A stretch of 64,000 nucleotides of DNA from Gloeomargarita sp. SRBZ-1_bins_9 (GTDB lineage Bacteria > Cyanobacteriota > Cyanobacteriia > Gloeomargaritales > Gloeomargaritaceae): NCBI GenBank assembly GCA_039794565.1, contig JAUQVX010000002.1, positions 192,126-256,125 on the forward strand, given 5' to 3'. Below the pieces are notes generated by a model. The model saw only the letters and a list, made by a program, of their open reading frames with translations, searched no databases and was not told the origin of the DNA. Below are positions 8,827-59,688 of this stretch, in pieces; positions within the stretch are counted from its first letter, which is position 1, and the number at the start of each line of letters is the position of its first letter. Both the position numbers and the translations under genes were made by a program.

Positions 8827-9322
8827 GGTGGTCATTGGTGTCATGGGGCCCGGGGAAGCAGCCAGTCCCGAGGTGTGTGTGGTGGCTATGGCCCTGGGGG
8901 AAAAAATCGCCCGAGCCGGTTGGGTGTTGCTCACCGGTGGTCGGAATGTGGGGGTCATGCGGGCGGCTACCTTAGGGGCGCGGCAGGCTGGAGGACTCAC
9001 CATTGGTATCCTGCCGGAGGCAACCGACACCGCTGCCATCCCTGAACTGGACCTTGTGATTCCCACTGGTCTGGGGCAGGCCCGCAATGTGGTCAATGTG
9101 TTAGCCAGTCATGTGGTGGTGGGCTGCGGCTGGGGGGCTGGTACTACATCCGAAATTGCCCTGGCCATCAAATACGGTAAACCTGTGGTCCTGCTAGAGA
9201 TGCCCCTGGTGGCTCAAACCTTTTTCCAACACCTGTCGCCGGCGGTACGCATCGCCCAAACGCCTGATGAAGCGATTAGCCTTGTGGGTCAGCTTCTCAC
9301 TATGGGCCACCAAGCAACCTAA
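8816..9322 (+). CDS. TIGR00725/LOG-like Rossmann-fold protein
   Basis: A 168-residue protein with GVMGPGEAA near the N-terminus, LTGGRNVGVMRAA, and GCGWGAGTTSEIALAIKYGKPVVLL. These are the nucleotide-binding loops of the TIGR00725 branch of the SMF/DprA/LOG superfamily. The lysine-decarboxylase-like PGGxGTxxE motif of cytokinin-forming LOG proteins appears here as GAGTTSE. Ligand and reaction are unknown. The first possible codon is TTG at 8816, overlapping DUF1825; GTG at 8828 is an alternative. Confidence 0.75.
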   Translation: MSRRVVIGVMGPGEAASPEVCVVAMALGEKIARAGWVLLTGGRNVGVMRAATLGARQAGGLTIGILPEATDTAAIPELDLVIPTGLGQARNVVNVLASHVVVGCGWGAGTTSEIALAIKYGKPVVLLEMPLVAQTFFQHLSPAVRIAQTPDEAISLVGQLLTMGHQAT

Positions 9323-9426
9323 GCTAGTACCCCTCGCTGCCGGCATGGTATCGCTACAGACGGCAAAGAATGACTTAGGCGCATACCCAAGGTATGGCTT
9401 CGCTCCTACTTTACCCAGCGGGTCTG

Positions 9427-10281
9427 CTATTGGTCGTGAAAGCCAAAGAAAATTTCCCGGCGCCGGGGGTATTGGTTGAGGTAGCGGCGGAACTTTTGCC
9501 AATCGAAACTGCGGGGGTCTATGCGCGTGCCGGAGGTGTCCACCGCTTTATGGGTGGTGATGCGTTCCCAGGGCACACAGGTTTTGGCAATGAGCCAGGC
9601 CAGCGACCGATACTGAGCGTCGGTGTAACCGCTGTGAACCGTGGGATTGGCTGGAGGTGGGGGTGTAGGCACAGGTTTGGATACCGGCGTTGCGGTTGTC
9701 TCCCCGGCGGGTTGCGGCGGGCGATAGTAACCATCCACCGGCGATTCCAGGGAAATGTGATAGGCAAAGTTGTTGACGGAAAACACGCCTTTGGGGTTGG
9801 TTTTGACCGCTTCCCCCCGAAAGGACGAAGGTGCCGCGCCAAATGCCCGCAGATGGGGAGGGACCAGATACACCACCGTTCCGTCGCGCCGGATGATTAC
9901 GTGGTAGCTGACTTGCAGCTCATCCCGACCTGTATGGTCTTTTTGAAACAAACTAATTGCGGCATCGGCAGGGCCGGCAGTTTCATGCAGGACAATCAGC
10001 GGCGCATAGTCAATCGGTTGCCCCCACACATCCACCTGGTGCCGTAAGCCGTAGTTGCTGGGGTGGACAAAGACTGTTTCTTCCCGGGGTTGATACTTAG
10101 GCCAGGATTGGGCTGCGGATAAACCCTCGGGACACAAGCCAGGCCCTGCCGGTAAGGGAGACAACTGGCTAATCACAATTGTTTCCGCCGGTCGTCGCCA
10201 CCATCCCCAGGCTTGCGTCGTGGCCAAGCAGACCATAACCAGAATTGCCCATAGCAGCCAACGCCACCACCGCCGCATCAC
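9427..10281 (-). CDS. N-acetylmuramoyl-L-alanine amidase (Amidase_2 family)
   Basis: Secreted or membrane-anchored 284-residue protein with an N-terminal hydrophobic segment (about 7-25). The catalytic domain shows LIVLHETAG (zinc His about 97), VSYHVIIRRDGTVV and later ITTHKAVD, the zinc-ligand histidines of the Amidase_2/PGRP fold. It would cleave the MurNAc-L-Ala bond of peptidoglycan. A proline/threonine-rich insertion (about 190-215) splits the domain. The gene stands alone between a convergent gene and psb30. Confidence 0.88.
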   Translation of the reverse strand: MMRRWWRWLLWAILVMVCLATTQAWGWWRRPAETIVISQLSPLPAGPGLCPEGLSAAQSWPKYQPREETVFVHPSNYGLRHQVDVWGQPIDYAPLIVLHETAGPADAAISLFQKDHTGRDELQVSYHVIIRRDGTVVYLVPPHLRAFGAAPSSFRGEAVKTNPKGVFSVNNFAYHISLESPVDGYYRPPQPAGETTATPVSKPVPTPPPPANPTVHSGYTDAQYRSLAWLIAKTCVPWERITTHKAVDTSGTRIDPRSFDWQKFRRYLNQYPRRREIFFGFHDQ

Positions 10282-35556: not shown

Positions 35557-35860
35557 ATGACGAAATTAAAGCAATTAAAAACCCTCTGCCCGCACGTGAC
35601 CAGCCGAGAAGTTCCCCAAGTAATTTTGAGAGTACCAATCCTGCTGGGTGAGGACTCCGCGGTGCCGTTTTACCTCAGTTTTGGACCGCAACAACAATAG
35701 GTGGGTACCTCTAGCCTCTGACTTAAAGTTTCTGGGTACAACGCCCAGTCTACTGCCGCCAGAGTTTCGGTTCCCTCATGCGTTGGGTGTAGATCGCAAA
35801 ACATTATTGGCAGTCACCAACACCGCAGAAGAACCTCTGGATTTACTGTACCAAATTTAG
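35557..35860 (+). pseudogene. Small frameshifted hypothetical gene
   Basis: An ATG at 35557 opens MTKLKQLKTLCPHVTS and continues EVPQVILRVPILLG, SAVPFYLSFGPQQQ to a TAG at 35700. The next frame, open from 35648, carries protein-like sequence RWVPLASDLKFLG and FRFPHALGVDRKTLLAV to a TAG at 35860. A slip at CAACAACAA (35689-35697) would join them into about 100 residues. The region is less GC-rich than its surroundings. No family is recognised. It is the only gene-like content between 35473 and 35842. Confidence 0.35.
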
Positions 35861-47824: not shown

Positions 47825-48592
47825 ATGGCCTATCCCCCCTGGCTACACTGGTTAGCCACCTGCCCCAGCACCAACACCTGGGCGCGGCAATCCCTGGCCC
47901 ACTTGGCCCATGGGGACGTAGTGTGCACGCCACGACAAACCGCCGGACGGGGACGGGATGGCCGTCGCTGGTATGCCCCACCGGGGGTGCTGACCGCTTC
48001 TTTTGTCCTGCAACCGGTGACTGCCTCCCAAATCCCCTGGTTGAGCCTAGCAGCGGGTTTGGCGGTTATTTATGCGGTGGAGGATACGGTTTCCCTGGCA
48101 CCAGGTACTTTAGGGCTTAAGTGGCCGAACGATGTGGTGCTCCAGGGCCGGAAGTTAGCCGGGGTGCTCTGCGAAGCGTCCCTACCCTGGGCGGTGGTGG
48201 GTATTGGTCTCAACCGGGCGGTGGATTGGGCTAAGGTTTTGACGGACCCAACCAGTGGTCTGTCCCCCTCTCAGGTGGCGAGTCTGCTGGAAGTGACGCC
48301 CCACCCACCGGACGTGATCACCCTGCTGACCCGGTTACGGCGCTATCTCCTGGAAGCCCACAGTCTCATCCAGCAGGGCAAAGAAGGAAATTTATTGCCC
48401 CCATTGCGCCAGCGGGATGTGCTCGATGGCTGTCCCCTCACCATCCGTAGCGGGGAGACCACCATCAGCGGCATTGGATTAGGGCTAGATGACCAGGGGC
48501 GGTTACGGGTCCAAGGAGCCGACGGAACGTTGCATGCTTTCACCGCCGGCCATGTAGTGTGCTGGGAACCGTCACGTTTCGTCGGGAATTAA
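47825..48592 (+). CDS. birA: Biotin--[carboxylase] ligase
   Basis: A 255-residue single-domain ligase without a DNA-binding N-terminus. The substrate-binding loop is GRGRDGRRWYAPPGVLTASF, followed by LKWPNDVVLQGRKLAGVLCE with the catalytic lysine, and VVGIGLNRAV. It biotinylates carboxyl-carrier domains. It is convergent with the guanidine/urea carboxylase gene and overlaps its end by 21 bp; that carboxylase has its own biotinyl domain, a likely target besides acetyl-CoA carboxylase. Confidence 0.93.
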   Translation: MAYPPWLHWLATCPSTNTWARQSLAHLAHGDVVCTPRQTAGRGRDGRRWYAPPGVLTASFVLQPVTASQIPWLSLAAGLAVIYAVEDTVSLAPGTLGLKWPNDVVLQGRKLAGVLCEASLPWAVVGIGLNRAVDWAKVLTDPTSGLSPSQVASLLEVTPHPPDVITLLTRLRRYLLEAHSLIQQGKEGNLLPPLRQRDVLDGCPLTIRSGETTISGIGLGLDDQGRLRVQGADGTLHAFTAGHVVCWEPSRFVGN

Positions 48593-51500
48593 CGTCAACA
48601 CCGCCTGTCCTGCCGTCACCGGTTGCCCCGGTTGGCGCAGGATTTGGGCGACGGTTCCCCCACAGGGCGCTAAAACCTCAATTTCCGTTTTCATGGCTTC
48701 AATCACCGCCACCCTATCGCCCTGGTTGACCCGCGCTTGGGGTTGGACATGCACCCGCCAGACCATGCCGCTCACTTCTGTACACACGGCCACCCGTCCT
48801 GCGGGAATGTCGGTTTCCGCCGCCGCGTCCTCCACTAGGTCTACCGTCTCGTTGGTGCGGTCAAATTCCCCTGCTGCCACCCAGCGCTCCCGTTCAGCTT
48901 GAAAGGCCTGCTGCTGCCGGGTTTTGAAAGCCTGAATCTCGGCGGCATGCTGCTGCAAGAAGGCCAGGTAGTCCCGCAGACGAAACGTTTGTTCGTGGAT
49001 GTCCAGCTTAACCCGCCCGTAAATGACGTCCTCCCGATAGCGCAGCAACTCGTCGGCGGTGACCGGGAAAAAGCGAATCTGGTCGAAAAACCTTAGCAGC
49101 CAGGGGCGAGAAAAGTTGCTGTTGCGCCGGTAGCGGTTCCATACGGGTACGGTGCGGCCCACCAACTGATAGCCCCCCGGCCCCTCCATGCCGTAGATAC
49201 AGAGATAGGCCCCGCCAATCCCCACCGCATTCTCCGGCGTCCAGGTGCGGGCCGGGTTGTACTTGGTGGTCACCAGGCGATGGCGCGGGTCTAATGGCGT
49301 CGCCACCGGTGCCCCCAAATACACATCCCCCAACCCCAGCACCAAATAACTCGCCGCAAAGACGATGTCATAGACCTGCTGGAGGTCCGCCAGGCCGTTG
49401 ATGCGCCGGATGAACTCCAAATTGCTGGGGCACCAGGGGGCGTCGGCCCGCACCGATTGCCCGTATTTCTCAATGGCCAACTGAATCGCCGGGTCGTTCC
49501 AGGACAGGGGCAAATACACGATGCGCGTCGGCACCTCCAGGTCCTGCACGTTGGGTAACTCCCGCTCCGCCTGGGCCAGCAGGGACAACAGTTCCGTCCG
49601 GGGCAACTGCCGGTTGTCGTAATGCACTTGCAGTGAACGAATCCCCGGCGTCAGGTCAAGAATTCCCGGTATCCGTTGCGCTTGCAGCCAGGTCATCAGG
49701 GCCTGGACCCGAAACCGTAGGGTCAAATCCAGGGTCAAGGGGCCGTATTCAATCAGCAAGTACTTGTCCCCCGCCTGGCGGTAGGTGACTCCCACCGGAT
49801 GGGTCTCTGGGGTCTCCTGGCGCAGGATTGGGTCGCCCCCGACCGTCAGCGGTTGGGACCGGGGCCGGGGCTGCAACGTGGCCAGTTCCTCCTCCTGCTG
49901 CTGTTCCCAGGCCCGGGCTGTGGCCTCGTCAATAGGGACAAACCGCACTGTATCACCTGGTTTGAGTTGCCCGATTTTCCACAACTCCGCCTGCACGATG
50001 GTGGCCGGGCAAACAAATCCCCCCAGGCTCGGGCCGTCGCACCCCAGGATGATGGGCATATCGCCGGTAAAATCAATCGTGCCGATGGCGTAGGCGTTGT
50101 CGTGGATATTAGACGGGTGCAGTCCCGCTTCCCCCCCATCCGGTCTGGCCCAGGTGGGCTTGGGGCCGATCAGGCGAATCCCCGTGCGGTTGGAATTGTG
50201 ATGCACCACCCAGGCGTGGCTGAACAACAGGGCCATGTCGTCCGGGGTGAAAAAGTCGGGAGCGGCGTGGGGACCGACCATCACAGCAATCTCCCAGGTG
50301 TGGGTGTAGGTGGGGATAAGCGCTGGGGGTAACGCCTGGGGCACATCTTCCCCGAACCAGGGGGTCAAAGGCAGGACATCGCCCGTGCGCAAGGCCCGTC
50401 CCCCGTGCCCGCCCAATTGCCCCAGGGTAAAGGTGGATCGGCTCCCCAGGTACATCGGCACCGGCAATCCCCCCTGAATGGCGATATAGGTGCGGCAACC
50501 GGGGCCTTGGACGGCCTGAAGTTCCAGCACGCTCCCTGCCGGCACCACCACCGTCTGCCAATAGGGAACCTCCTGACCGTTTAACCGGGCGGGCATGTAG
50601 GCCCCCGTCAGACAAATCCGCGTGGGTGCGTTAAACCGCAGGGTCGGCCCCACCAGAGTGCACTCCAGCCCCGCCGCCTCCGGGGGATTCCCCAACAAAC
50701 GGTTACCCCAGCGAAAAGCCAGGTGGTCCATTGGTCCCGACGGCGGCACCCCCACGTCCCAATAGCCCAACCGTCCTGGGTAATCCTGCACGGTGGTCAG
50801 GGTCCCCGGCGTCAGGACGTCTATGGTTTGGGGGCGATAGACCACCTCCGCCAGCCAGCGGGTGTGCACCTCCCCCTGTTGCATCGCCGGTGTCCCCAGC
50901 ACCTGTTGCAGGTACTCGCAATTGGTGACGATGCCGGCTAAAGTGGTTTGCGCCAAAGCTGCCTGTAACCTGTGCAGGGCCTCGGTTCGGTTGGCTCCGT
51001 AGGCAATGGCTTTGGCCAGTAGGGGGTCATAGAAGGGCGTCACCTCCGTCCCCGTTTCCAGCCAATGGTCCCAACGAATCCCTAGCCCCAGGGTCACTTC
51101 CGTCAACACCCCCGCGCTGGGCTGGAAATTTTTGTGGGGGTCTTCGGCGTAGATACGAGCTTGGATGGCATGTCCCCGGGGGTTGGGGGTCCAGGTGTCG
51201 AAAAAACTCCGGTCCCCGGCCGCCAGACGCACCATCCACTCCACCAAATCCACCCCCCAGACCAGCTCCGTGACCCCGTGCTCCACCTGCAGGCGCGTGT
51301 TCACCTCCAGGAAATAGAACTGCGCCGTCTGCACGTCATAGATAAATTCCACCGTGCCTGCGGACTGGTACTGCACCGCTTCCCCCAACCGTTGGGCCGC
51401 CTGGGCCAAGGCTTGACGAACCGCCTCAGGTAATCCCGGCGCTGGGGTTTCTTCGATCACCTTCTGGTGGCGGCGTTGGGTGGAGCAGTCCCGTTCCCCC

Positions 51501-52168
51501 AGCGTCAGGACACGCCCCTGGCCATCCCCAAAAATCTGCACCTCCAGATGGCGCGCCCGGGGAATGTACTTTTCCAAAAACACCCCAGCGTCCCGGAAAT
51601 GGGCCTGGCTGAGCCGTTGCACCTGGTCGTAGGCCGCCGCCAGTTCCTCCGGGTTGTGGCAACAGCGCATCCCAATGCCCCCGCCGCCGGCGGTACTTTT
51701 AAGCATCACCGGGTAGCCGATGGCCGCCGCCGCCTCTTGCGCCTCCTGTAGATCCTTTAATAAAGACGTGCCAGGTACCAGGGGGATACCGCAGGCTTGG
51801 GCTAGGGAGCGGGCCACGTGCTTAAGACCGAATTGGTGCACCTGCTCGGGTTTGGGGCCGATGAAAACGATCCCCTGTCGGGTGCAGGCTTCGGCAAAAT
51901 CCGCATTTTCACTGAGGAACCCATACCCCGGGTGAATCCCCTGGGCGCCGCTGGCCTGGGCGATGGCCAAAATCCGCTCCCCCTGCAGATAGCTCTCACT
52001 GGCCAGGGTGCCCCCTAGGGGATAGGCTTCGGTGGCCATTTGCACTGGGAGACTATGGCGGTCCGGCTCAGAATAAACGGCAACGCTGGCTATCCCCAAC
52101 CGGTTGAGCGTACGGATGAGGCGACAGGCGATCTCCCCCCGGTTAGCCACCAAAACCTTGCGCAACAC
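48572..52168 (-). CDS. Biotin-dependent guanidine (urea-type) carboxylase
   Basis: A 1,198-residue multidomain enzyme. Residues 1-450 are biotin carboxylase (VLVANRGEIACRLIRTL, the ATP-grasp loop STAGGGGIGMR). About 450-790 is the KipA/AHS2 carboxyltransferase half (VLTPGTLTTVQDYPGRLG, GPMDHLAFRWGN), about 830-1080 the KipI/AHS1 half, and the C-terminus a biotinyl domain with VIEAMKTEI (biotinyl Lys about 1160). Proteins of this architecture are called urea carboxylase, but those behind a guanidine-I riboswitch and DUF1989 genes carboxylate guanidine (Schneider et al. and Sinn et al. showed this group prefers guanidine). The GTG start overlaps the upstream stop (TAGTG). Confidence 0.9.
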   Translation of the reverse strand: MLRKVLVANRGEIACRLIRTLNRLGIASVAVYSEPDRHSLPVQMATEAYPLGGTLASESYLQGERILAIAQASGAQGIHPGYGFLSENADFAEACTRQGIVFIGPKPEQVHQFGLKHVARSLAQACGIPLVPGTSLLKDLQEAQEAAAAIGYPVMLKSTAGGGGIGMRCCHNPEELAAAYDQVQRLSQAHFRDAGVFLEKYIPRARHLEVQIFGDGQGRVLTLGERDCSTQRRHQKVIEETPAPGLPEAVRQALAQAAQRLGEAVQYQSAGTVEFIYDVQTAQFYFLEVNTRLQVEHGVTELVWGVDLVEWMVRLAAGDRSFFDTWTPNPRGHAIQARIYAEDPHKNFQPSAGVLTEVTLGLGIRWDHWLETGTEVTPFYDPLLAKAIAYGANRTEALHRLQAALAQTTLAGIVTNCEYLQQVLGTPAMQQGEVHTRWLAEVVYRPQTIDVLTPGTLTTVQDYPGRLGYWDVGVPPSGPMDHLAFRWGNRLLGNPPEAAGLECTLVGPTLRFNAPTRICLTGAYMPARLNGQEVPYWQTVVVPAGSVLELQAVQGPGCRTYIAIQGGLPVPMYLGSRSTFTLGQLGGHGGRALRTGDVLPLTPWFGEDVPQALPPALIPTYTHTWEIAVMVGPHAAPDFFTPDDMALLFSHAWVVHHNSNRTGIRLIGPKPTWARPDGGEAGLHPSNIHDNAYAIGTIDFTGDMPIILGCDGPSLGGFVCPATIVQAELWKIGQLKPGDTVRFVPIDEATARAWEQQQEEELATLQPRPRSQPLTVGGDPILRQETPETHPVGVTYRQAGDKYLLIEYGPLTLDLTLRFRVQALMTWLQAQRIPGILDLTPGIRSLQVHYDNRQLPRTELLSLLAQAERELPNVQDLEVPTRIVYLPLSWNDPAIQLAIEKYGQSVRADAPWCPSNLEFIRRINGLADLQQVYDIVFAASYLVLGLGDVYLGAPVATPLDPRHRLVTTKYNPARTWTPENAVGIGGAYLCIYGMEGPGGYQLVGRTVPVWNRYRRNSNFSRPWLLRFFDQIRFFPVTADELLRYREDVIYGRVKLDIHEQTFRLRDYLAFLQQHAAEIQAFKTRQQQAFQAERERWVAAGEFDRTNETVDLVEDAAAETDIPAGRVAVCTEVSGMVWRVHVQPQARVNQGDRVAVIEAMKTEIEVLAPCGGTVAQILRQPGQPVTAGQAVLTLIPDET

Positions 52169-52809
52169 TAGGCCGCGTCCCAAATCAACAGCCGAATAGG
52201 GGTGGGGTTATAGGCGTTACAGGGGTTGTTGATCTGGGGGCAGTTGGAAATCAGCACCAACACGTCCATCTCCGCCCGCAGGTCCACATATTTCCCCGGC
52301 GCCGAAATCCCATCTACGATTTCCAGACGCCCGTCCGCCGCCACCGGCACATTCATAAAGAAATTGATATTGCTCACCAGGTCCCGCTTGTGCAGGCCGT
52401 ACTTGCTTAGCTCCAGCAGGTAGTTCTCCACGCAGGCGTGCAGGTGCTTTTTGTGCAGGCCATAGCGCACCGAATTGCTCTCCATGCTGCAGGCCCCCCC
52501 CAGGGTGTCGTGACGACCGCAGGTATCGGCCACCACCGTCATCAATACATTCCCCAGGTTAGAAAGCAGTTGTGTACCGGCAGTGATAAAGATATTCCCC
52601 TGGCGCACAATGGTATCAGGGGCACTGTAGCGCTCCGAGGGGTCGTGGGCGTTGTAGATCAACGTATCCACCGCCTGGTTCCCCTCCAGGTCCACGATGC
52701 GCAGGATTTGCCCCTTGGTCACCACCTTGGACCAGGGTTGTCGGGCCGGCAATTGGTAGTCGTAAACCGCTTGGGCCGGGTCTAACACACGCTCCGTTGT
52801 CGCCACCAT
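52168..52809 (-). CDS. DUF1989 protein, carboxyguanidine deiminase subunit (UAAP2-type)
   Basis: A 213-residue protein with TKGQILRIVDLEGNQAVDTLIYNA, the cysteine-containing ADTCGRHDTLGGACS, NFFMNVPV and YVDLRAEMDVLVLISNCPQINNPCN. These are the DUF1989 (urea-amidolyase-associated protein 2) features. In characterised systems two DUF1989 paralogues form the heteromeric carboxyguanidine deiminase that releases ammonia and yields allophanate. It starts after AAGGAGG and sits between its partner and the carboxylase, whose start overlaps its stop. Confidence 0.88.
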   Translation of the reverse strand: MVATTERVLDPAQAVYDYQLPARQPWSKVVTKGQILRIVDLEGNQAVDTLIYNAHDPSERYSAPDTIVRQGNIFITAGTQLLSNLGNVLMTVVADTCGRHDTLGGACSMESNSVRYGLHKKHLHACVENYLLELSKYGLHKRDLVSNINFFMNVPVAADGRLEIVDGISAPGKYVDLRAEMDVLVLISNCPQINNPCNAYNPTPIRLLIWDAA

Positions 52810-52838
52810 CGTTACCAACCTCCTTGAGCAGACCGAGT

Positions 52839-53612
52839 TTACATCCCGTAGGTAGGCATGAGGGGTCGTTGCGCCCACCAGGTGTCCGTATTGATAAACG
52901 CCCGCTTCACCTCCTCATTGGCCGTGCGGCACAGGTCCTCCGGTCCCGGCGCGGGGGAACGCCACACCGTCAACTGCACCGGCGGCGGGTTGTAGGTGGT
53001 TTCCGGGTGCAGTACATGGGGGCAATTGGCCACTACTACTAACACATTCATTTCCGCCCGCAGGTCCACGTAACTCCCCGGTTTAGCCGCCGTCCCATCG
53101 TAGTGCAGCTCACCGTTGGGGCCTACCGTCACCCGGCTAAACAAATTCACACAGGGCATCAAATCCCGACGGGTCATCCCCCACTTGCCCAGCGCCCGCA
53201 AAAACTGGTCCCGGGCGTTATGGAAATCCCGCCGACCCCATTTGTCATCGCCGCCTTCGCCGTACTTGGCGCGGTTACTCTCCGGCGTACTCCAGCCGCA
53301 AATCAGGTCATGGCCATTGGACGTATCCTCCGTGAGGGAAAACAACACCCGGCCCATATCCGAATACAGCACCATGCCCTTGCGCAAAAAGGCATTGAAC
53401 TGAATCTTGGCCGTATCCGCCACATTCAAGCGCTCCATGGTCCGGTCTGCGTTGTAGGCAATCAGGGAAACCCCATGGGACCCACCCAAATCCGTGATGC
53501 GCAGCGTTTGCCAACGGGGGATAATGCCATGCCAGTAGGCGCCGCCAGGCAGCTTTTCCGACCAGACCACCAACTCCGGCGCCAGCGGGGGTGTTTCGAC
53601 CGTTGCCACCAT
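52839..53612 (-). CDS. DUF1989 protein, carboxyguanidine deiminase subunit (UAAP1-type)
   Basis: A 257-residue paralogue of the next gene. It has GAYWHGIIPRWQTLRITDLGG, STPESNRAKYGEGGDDKWGR, CVNLFSRVTV and YVDLRAEMNVLVVVANCPHVL, the UAAP1 signature. It would pair with the UAAP2-type protein as carboxyguanidine deiminase. AGGAGG followed by the ATG at 53612 is better spaced than the in-frame GTG at 53621. It is the first gene behind the guanidine-I riboswitch. Confidence 0.88.
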   Translation of the reverse strand: MVATVETPPLAPELVVWSEKLPGGAYWHGIIPRWQTLRITDLGGSHGVSLIAYNADRTMERLNVADTAKIQFNAFLRKGMVLYSDMGRVLFSLTEDTSNGHDLICGWSTPESNRAKYGEGGDDKWGRRDFHNARDQFLRALGKWGMTRRDLMPCVNLFSRVTVGPNGELHYDGTAAKPGSYVDLRAEMNVLVVVANCPHVLHPETTYNPPPVQLTVWRSPAPGPEDLCRTANEEVKRAFINTDTWWAQRPLMPTYGM

Positions 53613-53640
53613 ACCTGTCACCTCCTAAACCAAACAACGA

Positions 53641-53800
53641 AGCCCAGGAGTTCCGCCATCCAGCCTGTATCCAGACCTTCAGCACGTCCTCCCGGGCTTT
53701 TATCCCGCCGTGTGACCGCTACCGATTGCGGTAACGGCTTGCTTCTCTCGGACCAGTCACGGCTCTGGCCGCCGGAACCCTAGAAGCTCTCCTGCCTTAT
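53641..53800 (-). promoter_or_regulatory. Guanidine-I (ykkC) riboswitch
   Basis: The minus strand carries the conserved ykkC blocks in order: CTAGGGTTCCGG (about 53784-53773), CTGGTCCGAGAG (about 53756-53745), and ACGGCGGGATAAAAGCCCGG followed by GAGG (about 53710-53688). A second element CTCCTGGGCT (53650-53641) can pair over 10 bp, with one G-U, with AGCCCGGGAG (53698-53689) inside the aptamer, and is followed by TTCGTTGTTT. That suggests a helix competing with the ligand-bound fold, i.e. relief of termination when guanidine binds. It lies directly upstream of the DUF1989 genes and carboxylase. Confidence 0.92.
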
Positions 53801-53806
53801 AGGCCC

Positions 53807-53848
53807 ACCATAGCCCCACTCCCCTAACGAAACCGTCATCTACGCTAC
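53807..53848 (-). promoter_or_regulatory. NtcA-like promoter of the riboswitch operon
   Basis: On the minus strand GTAGCGTAGATGAC (53848-53835) matches GTA-N8-TAC with one mismatch (GAC), and 22 nt further lies TATGGT (53812-53807), fitting the TAN3T -10 form. The implied transcript would start near 53800, exactly where the riboswitch begins. Architecture is the class II NtcA promoter; the assignment is by pattern. Confidence 0.5.
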
Positions 53849-53865
53849 TTTTTACAAAAATTTAC
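53847..53865 (-). repeat. Direct-repeat element GTAAA-N5-GTAAA, copy 1
   Basis: The minus strand reads GTAAATTTTTGTAAAAAGT, directly upstream of the NtcA-like box of the riboswitch operon and overlapping the Rieske stop codon. A near-identical copy is at 55056-55075 in front of the Rieske gene. The 10-bp periodicity of GTAAA would place two half-sites on one helix face. Confidence 0.5.
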
Positions 53866-54944
53866 CCAGCGATCTGGGCTGGGGGATGACCGTGCAGATA
53901 AGCCAGCAGGAGTTTTTGCTGGTGGAGAATGCGAGCCTCCAGGGGGTGGACCGGTCCGGGTTGGTAAGCGCCGCTGGCGTAGCCCCGTTGCACCGATTCG
54001 GCAATCGCCACATCTTCGCCCACAAACGCTGCCAGTTCCGCCAGCACCTCCGCCAGAGGCGCGTCCGGTGATCCGTAGATGTCCGTCACCACTTGACACC
54101 GGTCTACTGCCACCGGGTCAATGCGCAGGGAAATGAACATGCCATCCGGCAGGGCCAGCAGGTGCCAATTGGGAAACACGCCGAAGGTGTAGAAATGGGT
54201 TTGGTTCTCGAGGGGCAAATCGCGACGCACCCGGCGGCGGGCCAACCAGGTCGGGGGCACCGGCGTCACCAGGGCATTGACATAGCTGCCGAAGCAATGC
54301 CGGTAATGGCGCACCGGCCCCTGCAACCGATGCAACGTCCGAGCATGGGCCACCGCCACGTGGTAATCGCAAAGGGTGTTGTCGTGATAAACCTTCCAGT
54401 TGCAGGCTACCGGGCGGGTATGGTGGTGTAACCAGCGCCATTCCCCCTGGGCATAGCCGGCCAAGACCTGGGCCATGGGGGCTAAATACACCGGCAGGGG
54501 GGGCACCTGGGGCTGGAAACTGACAAACAACAACTGCTGCCAGACCGCTACCTGCACCGGTCGCAGGGGGTAGTCTTGGGCGCAAAAATCACTGCCCCAT
54601 CCCTTCTGCTGCGCCGTCGCCCGCAATTGCCCCTGCAGGTCATAGACCCAGGCGTGGTAAGGACACACCAGCCGCTTCCTCGGGAAAACCCCCGGCTCCG
54701 GACATAGTTCCATTCCCCGGTGGGGACACAGGTTGTAAAACCCCCGCAGTTGGCCCCCTTCATCCCGGATGACCAGCAGACTCCGCCCGGCCAAGGAAGT
54801 CGCCCACACCGTCCCTGGTGTTGCCACCCGTTCGGCTGGCCCCAGGTACAACCAGGTCTGATGAAAAATGCGGGCCTGCTCCAGGGGTATCCATACCGGG
54901 TCGGTGTAATGTTCCGCCTGAAGTAAAAAAAACTCTCGCTCCAT
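53862..54944 (-). CDS. Rieske-type non-heme iron oxygenase, substrate unknown
   Basis: A 360-residue oxygenase alpha subunit. The Rieske 2Fe-2S ligands are Cys73 and His75 (NLCPHRGMEL) and Cys94 and His97 (LVCPYHAWVYD). The mononuclear iron site has DYHVAVAH (His195, His200) after NWKVYHDN. It resembles the group acting on small quaternary or N-methylated compounds (choline monooxygenase, betaine and stachydrine demethylases), where N-demethylation is the chemistry. No reductase or ferredoxin gene is adjacent. Location upstream of the riboswitch operon and opposite the importer suggests a guanidino substrate. M1 at 54944 is chosen because the region upstream to 55016 is promoter-like. Confidence 0.85.
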   Translation of the reverse strand: MEREFFLLQAEHYTDPVWIPLEQARIFHQTWLYLGPAERVATPGTVWATSLAGRSLLVIRDEGGQLRGFYNLCPHRGMELCPEPGVFPRKRLVCPYHAWVYDLQGQLRATAQQKGWGSDFCAQDYPLRPVQVAVWQQLLFVSFQPQVPPLPVYLAPMAQVLAGYAQGEWRWLHHHTRPVACNWKVYHDNTLCDYHVAVAHARTLHRLQGPVRHYRHCFGSYVNALVTPVPPTWLARRRVRRDLPLENQTHFYTFGVFPNWHLLALPDGMFISLRIDPVAVDRCQVVTDIYGSPDAPLAEVLAELAAFVGEDVAIAESVQRGYASGAYQPGPVHPLEARILHQQKLLLAYLHGHPPAQIAG

Positions 54945-55014
54945 ACTGCTTTTGTCAAAACAACCCAACGATTTAGACTGGACCGGCGCTTCCCCGCCTG
55001 CCCACCGTCGCCCC

Positions 55015-55057
55015 ATCCTGTCGGCTCATCTCCCCGGAAAATGGTATTCCCAATAAC
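55015..55057 (-). promoter_or_regulatory. NtcA-like promoter of the Rieske gene
   Basis: On the minus strand GTTATTGGGAATAC (55057-55044) is GTA-N8-TAC with one mismatch, followed after 23 nt by CAGGAT (55020-55015), one base from TAN3T. It is preceded by copy 2 of the GTAAA direct-repeat element, the same order as at the riboswitch operon. Together with the rest of the region 54945-55243, which holds no gene, this forms the divergent control region. Confidence 0.35.
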
Positions 55058-55075
55058 TTTTTTACAAAAATTTAC
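55056..55075 (-). repeat. Direct-repeat element GTAAA-N5-GTAAA, copy 2
   Basis: The minus strand reads GTAAATTTTTGTAAAAAAGT, identical to copy 1 except for one extra A. It adjoins the NtcA-like box of the Rieske gene. Sharing of such an AT-rich 19-nt element between two promoters 1.2 kb apart suggests a common regulator. Confidence 0.5.
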
Positions 55076-55132
55076 AATTAAAAAAATTGGGGGCCTATAT
55101 TAGGTATGGGGCGATGGCGACCCGGAAAAAAT

Positions 55133-55176
55133 GTATTTTTAGATACTGTTTTTGGCGAAATGAAATTCGCTATGGT
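55133..55176 (+). promoter_or_regulatory. NtcA-activated-type promoter of the importer operon
   Basis: GTATTTTTAGATAC (55133-55146) is an exact GTA-N8-TAC. After 24 nt comes TATGGT (55171-55176), a TAN3T -10 box, giving the standard class II NtcA layout. The transcript would begin near 55183, about 60 nt before the ATG of the binding-protein gene. Confidence 0.65.
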
Positions 55177-55183
55177 GGGAATG

Positions 55184-55218
55184 AGCCTGTGGCTGGGGCT
55201 GCCAGATGGACACAGGCT
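55184..55218 (+). promoter_or_regulatory. Hairpin at the 5' end of the importer mRNA
   Basis: AGCCTGTG (55184-55191) and CACAGGCT (55211-55218) are perfectly complementary and enclose a second short stem CTGG/CCAG. The structure would lie at the very start of the predicted transcript. It has neither the ACGR loops of guanidine-II nor a run of U, so it is neither that riboswitch nor a plain terminator. Confidence 0.4.
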
Positions 55219-55243
55219 TTAGGACGTGCAGGTTTGTATCGCC

Positions 55244-56257
55244 ATGGGACGAAAGTCATCTCAGCTTGCTGGGATTTTGTTTGCCTTGACCTTGGTTTTA
55301 GCGGTTAGTTGTGGCCTTGGCAATAGGCCCTCTGATGCGGTGGTGGTGCGGCTGGGATTTAGCGCCTGGCCCGGTTGGTTTCCCTGGCAGGTGGCCCAGG
55401 AAAAAGGGATTTTTCAACAGCATGATGTGCAGGTGGAGTTGCAGTGGTTTGACAGCTACACGGATTCGCTAAACGCGCTGAAAGCTGAACAGTTGGATGC
55501 CAATTCCCAAACCTTGAATGACACCATTAGTGCCGTAGCTGGTGGTGCGGATCAGGTGGTGGTGTTGGTGAACGACAATTCCACTGGCAATGACCAGATC
55601 ATTGTGCGGCAAGGGATCGATACCCTGGCGGATTTAAAGGGTAAACGCTTGGCGGCGGAAGAGGGAACCGTGAGTCACTTTTTCCTATACCTGGCCCTTG
55701 AGCGAGCGGGGTTGACGCCAGCAGATATTACGTTTGTACCCCTGGAAACCGGAAAAGCGGCGGCGGCCTTTGCGGCGGGTCAAGTGGACGGAGTGGCGGT
55801 TTTTGCCCCCTTTACCACCCAAGCCCTCAAGCGACCGGGAAGTAAAGTGCTCACCAGTTCAAAGGATTTTCCGGGGGCGATTTCAGACCATTTGGTGTTC
55901 ACCCGCCGCTTTGTGGAGCAACATCCTGACCAGGTGCAGAAGGTGGTGGATGCCTGGTTTGACACGATCCGCTACATCCAGGACCACCCCGACGAGGCAT
56001 TGACCATCATGGCCCAACGGGCGGGGGTTTCGGTGGCGGAGTACCAACAATATGCAGCGGGGACCCGCATTTTTACGGCCCAGGAAAACGTGGCGGCGTT
56101 TCAACCAGGCCAAGATCTAACCTCCCTGCCGTTTGCCACCCAGAAAGTCAGTGCTTTTTTGGTGCAAATGGGCTTTGTGCAAACGCAACCGGATGGGAGC
56201 CGGTTATTGGACGGGCGGTTTGTACAGGCGCATGTCGCTAGGGCACAGGGGCTATGA
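55244..56257 (+). CDS. ABC importer substrate-binding lipoprotein (urea-carboxylase-associated)
   Basis: A 337-residue protein with a signal peptide and lipobox-like LVLAVSCG. The fold is NMT1/TauA type: VRLGFSAWPGWFPWQVAQEKG, QLDANSQTLNDTISAVAGG, LKGKRLAAEEGTVSHFFL. It fits the TIGR03427-like periplasmic protein found near urea/guanidine carboxylase genes. Probable ligand is guanidine or a related guanidino compound, by context. A GTG at 55226 is an alternative start. The stop overlaps the permease ATG (ATGA). Confidence 0.87.
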   Translation: MGRKSSQLAGILFALTLVLAVSCGLGNRPSDAVVVRLGFSAWPGWFPWQVAQEKGIFQQHDVQVELQWFDSYTDSLNALKAEQLDANSQTLNDTISAVAGGADQVVVLVNDNSTGNDQIIVRQGIDTLADLKGKRLAAEEGTVSHFFLYLALERAGLTPADITFVPLETGKAAAAFAAGQVDGVAVFAPFTTQALKRPGSKVLTSSKDFPGAISDHLVFTRRFVEQHPDQVQKVVDAWFDTIRYIQDHPDEALTIMAQRAGVSVAEYQQYAAGTRIFTAQENVAAFQPGQDLTSLPFATQKVSAFLVQMGFVQTQPDGSRLLDGRFVQAHVARAQGL

Positions 56258-57093
56258 CGACTGACCCGACTCCCCCTAAGCAAACGCCGGCCTCTTCCCT
56301 GCGGCCATCGGTGTTCTGGCGTTTGGCAGAGGACATTCCCGCACCCCTGTACCGGCGGTTGATGCTGGTGTCGGTGGTGACCCCCCTGGTGCTGTGGTGG
56401 TTGTTGACGACCTTTGGGCAAGTCGACCCCAAGTTTTTGCCGGCGCCGGGGCAGGTAGTTACCGCGGCCGGGCGGCTGGGGGCATCAGGGGAGTTGTGGC
56501 AGGACACCTGGGCCAGTTTACAACGGGTGGGGATGGGGTTTGGCTTGTCGGTGCTGGTGGCGGTGCCCCTGGGGGTATTGATGGGGTGTTTCCAGAGTCT
56601 GCGGGCGCTGGGGGAACCTCTGTTTGGCTTAATGCGTTACATGCCGGCGCCGGCGTTTATTCCCCTGTTAATTCTCTACCTAGGCATTGACGAAGCACCC
56701 AAAATTGCCCTGATTTTTATCGGCACCTTTTTCTACAACGCTTTGATGGTAATGGACACGGTGAAATTTGTCCCCAAGGAACTGATTGAGGCGACCTATA
56801 TGTTGGGGGGCAATCGCTTCAATACGGTGGTGCGAGTGATTTTTCCCCATGTGTTGCCGGGGATTTTGGATGCCTGTCGGATCAATTTTGCGTCGGCCTG
56901 GCAGTTGGTGATCGTGGCGGAACTGGTGGCGGCAACCGAAGGCTTGGGACGGCGGATTAGTTTGGCGGGCAGGTTTCTGCGGACGGATGAAATTTTTGTG
57001 GGCTTGATAGTGATTGGTTTGATTGGGTTGGGGTTGGATTTATTGTTTCAGTATTTGGTGCGGGTGACCTGTCGGTGGGCCCATCCCGAATGA
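56254..57093 (+). CDS. ABC importer permease (urea-carboxylase-associated)
   Basis: A 279-residue permease with six membrane helices. The cytoplasmic coupling loop EATYMLGGNRFNTVVRVIFP HVLPG is split here for length; its EAA-x3-G-like pattern is that of the TauC/SsuC/NrtB group. N-terminal residues 1-40 are cytoplasmic and proline-rich. It is coupled to the binding protein by a 4-bp overlap and precedes the ATPase by 32 bp. Substrate inferred from operon context only. Confidence 0.88.
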   Translation: MTTDPTPPKQTPASSLRPSVFWRLAEDIPAPLYRRLMLVSVVTPLVLWWLLTTFGQVDPKFLPAPGQVVTAAGRLGASGELWQDTWASLQRVGMGFGLSVLVAVPLGVLMGCFQSLRALGEPLFGLMRYMPAPAFIPLLILYLGIDEAPKIALIFIGTFFYNALMVMDTVKFVPKELIEATYMLGGNRFNTVVRVIFPHVLPGILDACRINFASAWQLVIVAELVAATEGLGRRISLAGRFLRTDEIFVGLIVIGLIGLGLDLLFQYLVRVTCRWAHPE

Positions 57094-57125
57094 AGGTTTT
57101 TTGTTGTTTTTGCGGAGGTCGCGGT

Positions 57126-57923
57126 ATGTTTCTGCAGGTGCGTCAGTTGACCAAAGTGTTCTCTACTCGGCAAGGGCCGTTGTTGGTGCTGGAGGATATT
57201 AATTTTTCCGTAGCCCAGGGGGAATTTGTTTGTGCGGTGGGGGCGTCCGGTTCGGGAAAGTCCACGCTGCTGCGGCAAATTGCCGGGTTGGACCAGCCGA
57301 CGCGGGGCGGGGTGTGGATTGACGGCCAGCGGGTGACGGGTCCGGGAGCCGACCGGGGGATGGTGTTTCAGCATTACACGCTCTACCCTTGGATGACGGT
57401 GCAACAAAACGTGGAGTTCGGCCTGAAGTTACAGGGGGTGCCCCAGCGGGAACGGCGGGAACGGGCGCGCTATTACCTGCAAGTGGTGGGATTGAGCGCC
57501 TTTGCCCAGGCCCTCCCCCGGCAGTTGTCCGGTGGCATGAAACAGCGGGTGGCCATTGCCCGGGCACTGGCGGCGGAACCCCGGTTGCTCCTGTTGGATG
57601 AACCGTTCGGGGCGCTGGATTTGCACACCCGGGAGATGATGCACGAGTTCCTGATGGACCTGTGGCAGCGCACGGGCTTGACGGTGTTCATGATCACCCA
57701 CGATGTGGAGGAGGCGGTGTTTTTGGCGACGCGAATTTTGGCCCTGAGTGCGCGTCCTGGTCGCATCGTGCGGGAGATGACGGTGGAGTTGCCGGACCGT
57801 CGCCAGGGGGTGATGGCCATCAAACGGCATCCCCACTTCCATGACTACCGGGACGAACTAGTGATGCTCCTGCGGCAGACGGGTCAGGCGGCCCACCAGC
57901 GGTCCATGGCCCTGGCGGCCTGA
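57126..57923 (+). CDS. ABC importer ATPase (urea-carboxylase-associated)
   Basis: A 265-residue ATPase with Walker A GASGSGKST, Q-loop GMVFQHYTLYPWMTV, signature LSGGMKQR, Walker B LLLLDEPFGALD and switch ITHDVEEAV. It belongs to the TauB/SsuB/NrtD group. A GGAGG precedes the ATG at 57126; an upstream open stretch to 57075 only overlaps the permease. The allophanate hydrolase gene begins 1 bp after its stop, joining import to catabolism in one operon. Confidence 0.92.
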   Translation: MFLQVRQLTKVFSTRQGPLLVLEDINFSVAQGEFVCAVGASGSGKSTLLRQIAGLDQPTRGGVWIDGQRVTGPGADRGMVFQHYTLYPWMTVQQNVEFGLKLQGVPQRERRERARYYLQVVGLSAFAQALPRQLSGGMKQRVAIARALAAEPRLLLLDEPFGALDLHTREMMHEFLMDLWQRTGLTVFMITHDVEEAVFLATRILALSARPGRIVREMTVELPDRRQGVMAIKRHPHFHDYRDELVMLLRQTGQAAHQRSMALAA

Positions 57924-57924
57924 C

Positions 57925-59298
57925 ATGGGGGTCCGGTTTGACCTGGGTTCCCTGCGCCGGGCCTATCTAACGGGTGAACTCACGCCGACCCAGGTGGTGG
58001 AGGAGGTATACGCCCGCATTGCCTATTACAGCGACCCGGCGGTGTGGATTTACCTGGCCCCCCAACCGGAAACCTTGGCGCGGGCGGCCCACCTAGAAAC
58101 GCAAAACCCGGCGGATTTTCCCCTGTACGGGATTCCCTTTGCCATCAAGGACAACATTGATTGGGCAGGTGTACCCACAACGGCCGGTTGTCCGGGTTTT
58201 GCCTATACCCCATCCGTATCTGCTCCGGTGGTGGCCAGTTTGCTGGCAGCCGGCGCCATCCCTATAGGCAAAACTAACCTGGACCAGTTCGCTACGGGGT
58301 TGGTGGGGACCCGGTCGCCCTACGGAATTTGCCGCAATCCCTGGCATCCCGACTACATTCCCGGTGGGTCGAGTGCGGGGTCGGCGGTGGCGGTGGCGGC
58401 GGGGCTGGTGAGCTTTAGTTTGGGGACGGATACGGCAGGTTCGGGGCGGGTGCCGGCGGCGTTGAACGGGATTGTCGGTCTCAAGCCTACGCGGGGTTAT
58501 GTCAGTACGCGGGGTGTGGTGCCGGCGGTGCGCAGTTTGGATTGTGTGTCCATCTTTGCCCAGAGGGTGACAGACGCCCAGCAAGTGTTGCAGGTGATAG
58601 CCGGGTTTGACCCAGCAGACCCTTTCTCCCGGCAACCATCGCCCCCACCGGCCTTGGCCACAACAACCCTGCGTCTGGGGGTTCCCCCGCCGGATCAACT
58701 GGACTTTGGGGGGGACCCAGCGGCAGCCCAAAATTACCAGGCGGCCATCCAGCGGTTTGTGACTCTTGGCGCTCAGGCGGTGACCGTAGATATTCAGCCG
58801 TTTCTCGCAGCCGGGGAATTGCTCTACGAGGGGGCCTGGTTGGCCGAACGCACGGCAGCCGTCGGCGAGTTTCTCAAACAGGACCAAGCGGGGATCGACC
58901 CCACCGTGCGCCAGATCATCCTGGCAGGGCAGGGCATCAGCGGGATGCAGGTGTTCCGGGATACATACCGTTTGCAGGCCCTGCGGCGGGAAACAGAAAC
59001 CCTGTGGCGGGAGATGGATATGTTGGTGTTGCCGACCATCGGCACAGCCTATCGGGTGCAGGAGGTGCTGGCCCAGCCCGTGGAACTGAACCGTCGTCTG
59101 GGGCGCTACACCAACTTTGTGAATTTGCTGGATCTGTGCGCATTGGCCTTGCCCAGTGGTTTTCAGACCGATGGGTTGCCTACCGGCATTACGGTGATGG
59201 CCCCGGCCTGGCGGGATGAATGGTTATGTCAGTGGGGGGCCCGTTATCAGGCGTTAGGGGAGGAGACAGACCGATGGACGATGCCTGGGTGCGGCTAG
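57925..59298 (+). CDS. atzF: Allophanate hydrolase, amidase domain
   Basis: A 457-residue amidase-signature enzyme. The catalytic Ser-Ser-Lys set is Lys75 (FAIKDNIDW), Ser149 or Ser150 (PGGSSAGSAVAVAAG) and nucleophile Ser173 (DTAGSGRVPAAL). DGLPTGITVMAPAW near the end is typical of AtzF/DUR1 proteins. It releases ammonia from allophanate. Full AtzF has about 600 residues with a C-terminal decarboxylase domain; here the frame stops just after the amidase domain and the rest is a decayed remnant (59299-59688). Whether the shortened enzyme works in cells is unknown. Confidence 0.9.
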   Translation: MGVRFDLGSLRRAYLTGELTPTQVVEEVYARIAYYSDPAVWIYLAPQPETLARAAHLETQNPADFPLYGIPFAIKDNIDWAGVPTTAGCPGFAYTPSVSAPVVASLLAAGAIPIGKTNLDQFATGLVGTRSPYGICRNPWHPDYIPGGSSAGSAVAVAAGLVSFSLGTDTAGSGRVPAALNGIVGLKPTRGYVSTRGVVPAVRSLDCVSIFAQRVTDAQQVLQVIAGFDPADPFSRQPSPPPALATTTLRLGVPPPDQLDFGGDPAAAQNYQAAIQRFVTLGAQAVTVDIQPFLAAGELLYEGAWLAERTAAVGEFLKQDQAGIDPTVRQIILAGQGISGMQVFRDTYRLQALRRETETLWREMDMLVLPTIGTAYRVQEVLAQPVELNRRLGRYTNFVNLLDLCALALPSGFQTDGLPTGITVMAPAWRDEWLCQWGARYQALGEETDRWTMPGCG

Positions 59299-59688
59299 CG
59301 TGGTGGTCGCCCATTTGAGGGGACAACCCTTGAATGGGGAATTACGGGCGTGGCAGACTCGGTATGGGCGCACCTGTACCACGGCTCCCCTCTACCGGCT
59401 CTATGCCCTGCTGGGGGGGGAAACCTAGCGAAACCGGGTCTCCTGCGCCAACCCCCCGGACAACCGGGCTAGGCCATTGAAGTCGAGGTGTGGGAACTGC
59501 CGGTTGCAGGTTTTAGTCGGCTGGTGGTCGGGATCCTTGAACCTCTGGGCATGGGGACGGTGGTGCTGGCGGATGGGGGACGGGTCAAGGAATTTTTGTG
59601 CGAGTCCTTTGCGGTCGTCAATGCTCCAGATATTTCTCATTGCGGGGGTTGGCGGGCTTATTTACACGCCCACTATACTGGGTCGTAG
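59299..59688 (+). pseudogene. Decayed C-terminal domain of allophanate hydrolase
   Basis: From 59300 a frame one base off encodes VVVAHLRGQPLNGELRAW and TAPLYRLYALLGG to a TAG at 59426, then a slip in the G8 run (59413-59420) leads to KPGLLRQPPGQPG, a TAG at 59470-59472, and [33 protein letters not shown] and GGWRAYL ending at 59686-59688. In order these match the AtzF C-terminal domain (VGAHLSGxPLN, YRLYAL, VEVWELP, GWRAYL). So one frameshift near 59270-59296, one in the G run and one nonsense codon separate it from the amidase domain. Confidence 0.88.

Follow-up and report, generated by a model that had tools for sequence, protein, structure and literature searches.

Positions 47825-59298 of the window (the whole 64-kb stretch of DNA analysed here) hold an island of divergently oriented genes. 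The minus strand carries a Rieske oxygenase gene, a guanidine-I riboswitch, cgdA, cgdB and a carboxylase gene, in that order, and the plus strand an ABC importer (55226-57923) followed by an allophanate hydrolase gene (57925-59298) and, at the other end of the island, birA, which faces the carboxylase gene. The features are given below; the start coordinates of cgdA, cgdB, the Rieske gene and the binding-protein gene are approximate.

47825-48592, plus strand: birA, biotin-protein ligase (TIGR00121, 117.5 bits, above cut-off)
48572-52183, minus strand: gca, predicted guanidine carboxylase with biotin carboxylase, carboxyltransferase and biotin-carrier domains (TIGR02712; D704, D953)
52168-52878, minus strand: cgdB, predicted carboxyguanidine deiminase subunit, DUF1989 (TIGR03424, PF09347; probable start about 52809)
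52839-53621, minus strand: cgdA, predicted carboxyguanidine deiminase subunit, DUF1989 (TIGR03425; probable ATG at 53612 with AGGAGG immediately 5')
53622-53710, minus strand: expression platform of the riboswitch (RNA fold z -2.86; sister alignment)
53687-53794, minus strand: guanidine-I (ykkC) riboswitch aptamer (RF00442, model positions 1-107, full)
53850-53865, minus strand: 16-nt block GTAAATTTTTGTAAAA, second copy of the HLR1-type element, including the Rieske stop codon
53862-55016, minus strand: Rieske non-haem iron oxygenase gene (PF00355 and PF00848)
55061-55078, plus strand: perfect HLR1 (RpaB-type) box TTTACAAAAATTTACAAT (motif match)
55133-55146, no strand: NtcA box GTATTTTTAGATAC; 24 nt further on, in the direction of the importer, comes a TAN3T -10 box
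55226-56257, plus strand: ABC importer substrate-binding lipoprotein gene (TIGR01728; probable ATG at 55244)
56254-57093, plus strand: ABC importer permease gene (PF00528)
57075-57923, plus strand: ABC importer ATPase gene (PF00005)
57925-59298, plus strand: atzF, allophanate hydrolase, amidase domain alone (TIGR02713, 581.4 bits, above cut-off)

This layout bears out most of the first-pass annotation, which had placed a riboswitch ahead of two DUF1989 genes and a biotin carboxylase (RF00442, TIGR03425, TIGR03424 and TIGR02712 all score above cut-off), an importer and then atzF divergent from them on the plus strand (AtzF above the TIGR02713 cut-off), a Rieske oxygenase in the island (Rieske and Ring_hydroxyl_A domains in 53862-55016, minus strand) and a convergent birA. 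The carboxylase length it gave, 1,198 residues, needs correction, the open reading frame being 1,203 aa. The 3' ends of birA and the carboxylase gene overlap by 21 bp; birA also adjoins the carboxylase gene in two same-genus (sister) genomes, G085 (L082) and G241 (L201), and lies near the island in some further carboxylase-bearing cyanobacteria (L194, L196, L197). Elsewhere in the window, a 6S RNA was recognized at 35650-35834 on the minus strand (72.6 bits).

A predicted carboxylase route for guanidine

In profile searches the carboxylase scores 1843.8 bits (TIGR02712, cut-off 1304), AtzF 581 bits (TIGR02713, cut-off 511), and CgdA and CgdB, a DUF1989 pair belonging to families UAAP1 and UAAP2, 294.8 bits (TIGR03425, cut-off 206) and 354.6 bits (TIGR03424, cut-off 285). 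The carboxylase can be aligned with the Kluyveromyces lactis urea amidolyase along its entire length, its D704 falling at the position of N1330 and its D953 at that of D1584. Guanidine carboxylases are distinguished by Asp at K. lactis positions 1330 and 1584, whereas urea carboxylases have Asn1330 (PMC11410670); equivalents of D704 and D953 occur in all eight other cyanobacterial carboxylases compared, a ninth, in L200, being left out. Together with the riboswitch and both DUF1989 subunits, D704 gives good support to the prediction of a guanidine route via this carboxylase. A urea carboxylase (urea amidolyase) pathway, with urea instead of guanidine as substrate, would agree with the NCBIfam name of the protein, urea carboxylase, with a domain order common to urea carboxylases and with the full-length alignment. 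However, the enzyme has Asp where urea enzymes have Asn, it is accompanied by CgdA/B and a guanidine riboswitch, and the window genome already encodes a urease. We consider urea a highly improbable substrate, and the urea carboxylase identity was rejected on D704 and the genomic context.

The AtzF protein has 457 aa and matches positions 2-412 of the 563-position profile. The reference models have 563/600 positions; the window protein spans just their amidase part and is missing the domain found at the C-terminus of complete AtzF proteins. It is equally short in the sister genomes (459-461 aa).

A survey of 386 genomes of the phylum, which are related to one another, recovered the carboxylase in 10 and the guanidinase GdmH in 57, the two never occurring in the same genome. 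The carboxylase pathway itself is already known; in cyanobacteria it is a minority route, and the first-pass description of it as an alternative arrangement holds. The same divergon is present in G085, and in G241 it is kept with the carboxylase gene unlinked: there the carboxylase gene and birA (L201) lie about 335 kb from cgdAB, the riboswitch and the importer (L083). No guanidinase gene was found in the window genome or in either sister genome. Urease alpha is present in the window genome and absent in both sister genomes, an absence in keeping with a pathway that does not pass through urea. The earlier proposal that the island serves guanidine nitrogen is thus supported by the riboswitch, CgdA/B, D704 and D953, conservation in the two same-genus genomes and the lack of a guanidinase in all three; that annotation assigned no function to the oxygenase.

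The importer was correctly recognized as an ABC importer, but its assignment to the urea-carboxylase-associated type does not strictly hold. The substrate-binding protein scores 243.6 bits with TIGR01728 (SsuA family), above cut-off, and 157 bits with TIGR03427, the urea-carboxylase-associated model, whose cut-off is 334; the TIGR03427 type was dropped on this sub-cut-off score, and the importer is SsuABC/TauABC-like. Its permease clusters together with the permease of guanidinase operons, and its ATPase is 57-70% identical to guanidine-operon ATPases where the window ATPase is the best-matching query.

The riboswitch and the divergent promoter

The riboswitch matches RF00442 at 53794-53687 on the minus strand over its full length (84.3 bits against a cut-off of 63, E 1.4e-13). 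The 3' strand of the aptamer, AAGCCCGGGAG, can pair with CTCCTGGGCTT, next to which comes a T-rich stretch, giving a terminator-like stem that rivals the aptamer stem in RNA folding (z -2.86) and is partly kept in the two same-genus genomes. As the Rieske gene lies upstream of it, the riboswitch does not lead that gene in the window, and the importer and AtzF genes are not downstream of it either.

Guanidine-I riboswitches were found in 121 of the 386 genomes, about half of these in a family of ~2-Mb genomes outside the class (f31). A fuzzy sequence pattern for the riboswitch yields false matches in G+C-rich loci, and key cases were confirmed with Rfam. In one genome outside the class (G043), a guanidine-I riboswitch region adjoins a small multidrug-resistance type exporter gene of the guanidine exporter type (L092 8838-9155, the one f31-type locus examined). 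Glutamine-II riboswitches lie about 4-7 kb from importer/Rieske genes in three picocyanobacterial loci (L065 2764-2826, L120 16229-16291 and L127 16226-16288).

The divergent region contains an NtcA box in all three same-genus genomes (the window, G085 and G241; alignment) and a TTTACA direct repeat in all three; in the window and in G085 (L082) this repeat matches the HLR1 (RpaB) box perfectly. The NtcA and HLR1 motifs are defined in part after PMC6331805. The HLR1 box is the sole match at up to one mismatch in the window, and 20 simulated windows gave none. The loci gathered here contain 47 guanidine-I riboswitches, most of them from the cyanobacterial class. An exact GTAN8TAC lies in the 250 nt upstream of 21 of these (exact boxes in L056, L059, L060, L080-L088, L091, L095, L114, L115, L194, L196, L197 and L202), the background frequency being 2.3% among 250-nt pieces (p 4e-22 in a binomial test, uncorrected for kinship). 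These boxes point to nitrogen scavenging and suggest control by nitrogen starvation as well as by guanidine. The window riboswitch has no NtcA box within 250 nt upstream, because the Rieske gene now separates box and switch. In the window, the Rieske gene is flanked on both sides by a 16-nt block from the HLR1 region; the sister genomes have this block as a single copy, invariant beside the riboswitch. The likeliest history is that the Rieske gene was inserted into an ancestral divergent promoter, duplicating the block.

The Rieske oxygenase and its guanidine-linked relatives

The Rieske protein has the CxH...CxxH cluster and the mononuclear iron ligands (C78, H80, C99, H102, H200, H205, D316), all invariant in the Rieske alignment; D316 is assigned by analogy as the carboxylate ligand of the mononuclear iron. 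The predicted structure has a mean pLDDT of 91.5. The nearest solved folds belong to Rieske enzymes that remove N-methyl groups or cleave C-N bonds, namely CntA and stachydrine demethylase, which are just 20-23% identical in the fold alignments, and aromatic dioxygenases follow close behind with similar TM-scores. The GbcA-type family model NF058607 covers the N-terminal half at 113.6 bits, far below its cut-off of 670. No redox partner genes lie within the island, and a cellular ferredoxin is assumed as the electron donor.

In the tree, guanidine-linked Rieske proteins occupy one side of a single branch (support 100/100), the neighbors of the window protein being those of Tildeniella and Leptolyngbya. 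Orthologues with at least 37% identity occur in 19 of the 386 genomes, and all 19 encode either the guanidinase (18) or, in the window genome, the carboxylase; the hypergeometric probability of this co-occurrence is 3e-16 when genomes are counted and 2e-5 when genera are, both values being made too small by kinship. Fourteen of the 19 are inside a riboswitch-guanidinase operon, which usually starts with the riboswitch, gdmH, hypA and hypB and continues with the importer and, last, the Rieske gene; some operons have a type III glutamine synthetase gene ahead of the importer. This order recurs in named genomes of Synechococcus and Cyanobium, and the same genes are so arranged in Prochlorococcus, where neither of the two loci scanned has a riboswitch scoring above the Rfam cut-off. 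In Tildeniella and Leptolyngbya, an Rfam-confirmed guanidine-I riboswitch leads a synthetase-importer-Rieske operon, with the guanidinase elsewhere. In G062 and G324 the Rieske gene lies beside the importer, apart from the guanidinase, and in G172 it is alone. Non-cyanobacterial matches (27-34% identity) have no adjoining guanidinase operon, carboxylase or CgdAB among the loci listed. The Rieske gene is missing from both G085 and G241, the island being otherwise kept; hence, it is not needed for guanidine use.

Type III glutamine synthetase genes are found within many cyanobacterial guanidine-riboswitch operons (L061 10278-11594, L062, L063, L070 6526-7878, L081, L094, L114 5483-6802 and L115; TIGR03105 above cut-off in the copy tested). 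The synthetase is encoded in 8 of the 19 Rieske genomes against 24 of 386 overall, a difference confounded by kinship. For this reason, and because the copy in the window genome lies away from the island, beside desaturase and hydrolase genes, we set it aside as a regular Rieske partner, keeping the link as a lead. One importer-plus-Rieske operon, in L057, includes an isochorismatase-like hydrolase gene (9282-9875, minus strand; biuret-hydrolase-like, sub-cut-off) and has no riboswitch above the Rfam cut-off.

A proposed pathway and its alternatives

Taken as a whole, these observations are best explained by a nitrogen-scavenging guanidine island with a proposed guanidine-releasing Rieske oxygenase, a reading to which we assign a probability of roughly 0.7. 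It builds on gene identities, signature residues, the riboswitch, promoter motifs, genus-level conservation, the Rieske clade and co-occurrence, which the sequences show; all activities, what the importer carries, what the Rieske enzyme acts on and the sequence in which the genes are expressed are inferred. In this scheme, the ABC importer would take up guanidine or a substituted guanidine, the carboxylase would add CO2 to guanidine at the expense of ATP, CgdA/CgdB would deiminate carboxyguanidine to allophanate, and AtzF would convert the latter to ammonia and CO2. Guanidine would turn on cgdA-cgdB-gca via the riboswitch, while the NtcA box, and probably the RpaB box, would place the divergent promoter under the influence of nitrogen status and light. 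The Rieske protein, a later arrival in the lineage, would most likely hydroxylate an N-alkyl carbon of a substituted guanidine to yield free guanidine, the simplest (smallest) candidate substrate, as a guess, being methylguanidine. Since its gene precedes the riboswitch, the enzyme would be produced ahead of any guanidine build-up, and its product would open the switch. This guanidine-releasing role, drawn from linkage and fold, is put forward tentatively, at somewhat less than even odds.

The Rieske gene might instead be an unrelated passenger, inserted by chance at the divergent promoter of a plain guanidine carboxylase island. Its absence from two same-genus genomes, the duplicated promoter block that makes it look like a late arrival, and a pathway that is complete even without it all agree with this, but a random passenger would not be expected to have orthologues restricted to guanidinase or carboxylase genomes (19 of 19), mostly inside a guanidine operon, and we regard it as distinctly unlikely. 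A co-regulated Rieske enzyme could also act on another substrate of the importer, such as a substituted amine or guanidino acid, with a product other than guanidine, for example an amine that would serve the type III glutamine synthetase encoded in several operons. The importer-plus-Rieske modules without a guanidinase in G062 and G324 lean this way, as do the riboswitch-synthetase-importer-Rieske operons of Tildeniella and Leptolyngbya; yet guanidine breakdown is encoded in every carrier genome checked, a guanidine riboswitch heads most of the operons, and the window island is devoid of a type III synthetase gene, the one copy being elsewhere in the genome. We consider this alternative unlikely.

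Guanidine is toxic to some cyanobacteria (PMC8390497) and the riboswitch senses internal guanidine, such that the island could be held to detoxify internally made guanidine rather than to scavenge it. Against this, a dedicated importer and NtcA boxes speak for uptake under nitrogen need, and no exporter gene lies within the island, making detoxification quite improbable.

Relationship to known guanidine systems

The window island shares its predicted enzyme steps, guanidine-I riboswitch, ABC importer and signature Asp with the proteobacterial Gca/CgdAB/AtzF pathway (Schneider 2020; Sinn 2021; Vreelandella boliviensis, PMC12508155). In contrast to that system, it is cyanobacterial, is organized as two divergent transcripts with NtcA and HLR1 boxes, encodes an AtzF without the C-terminal part, and has a Rieske gene in place of MgdH/MgdL. 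With the Synechocystis Sll1077/GdmH operon (PMC8390497; Funck 2022) it has in common the guanidine-I riboswitch and a homologous ABC importer type, whereas the nickel guanidinase of that operon, which forms urea and is accompanied by HypA/HypB, is found neither in the window genome nor in its two same-genus relatives.

In the Vreelandella carboxylase operon, the 2-oxoglutarate dioxygenase MgdH and the lyase MgdL demethylate methylguanidine (PMC12508155). There, too, an oxygenase has been added to a riboswitch-controlled carboxylase island, and we propose the same type of reaction; however, MgdH belongs to the 2-oxoglutarate/Fe(II) enzymes, which are not related to the Rieske type, and no MgdL-like gene was identified in the window island. 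In our reading, the Rieske protein would be the cyanobacterial counterpart of MgdH, feeding guanidine to whichever breakdown route exists. The closest hits to it by sequence and fold are CntA carnitine monooxygenase, stachydrine demethylase and GbcA glycine betaine monooxygenase, enzymes that attack C-N bonds in cationic, methylated nitrogen compounds.

A Rieske gene (CK_00002251) beside the marine picocyanobacterial guanidinase cluster was previously taken as a hint of iron use, with no catalytic role given (PMC10119275). The linked picocyanobacterial genes found here share clade and importer type with the window; in that marine cluster the gene lies downstream of riboswitch and guanidinase, whereas the window gene lies upstream of the riboswitch, near carboxylase genes. 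In the literature searched we found no description of a Rieske clade coupled to both guanidine routes, of the position upstream of the riboswitch or of the NtcA association.

These results mark the carboxylase route as the less common alternative to the guanidinase among cyanobacteria and connect guanidine riboswitches to NtcA nitrogen control. Among the sampled cyanobacteria, the Rieske gene is tied to guanidine breakdown genes only, across two unrelated routes and distant lineages including marine picocyanobacteria, which makes it a concrete gene to test. The linked proteins may constitute a new oxygenase family, common to both cyanobacterial routes and extending to Prochlorococcus, that releases guanidine from its alkylated or other substituted derivatives, a possibility we rate a little below an even chance. 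The natural origin of guanidine has been called a major gap (PMC12186494); if true, a guanidine-freeing Rieske family would indicate a natural guanidine source.
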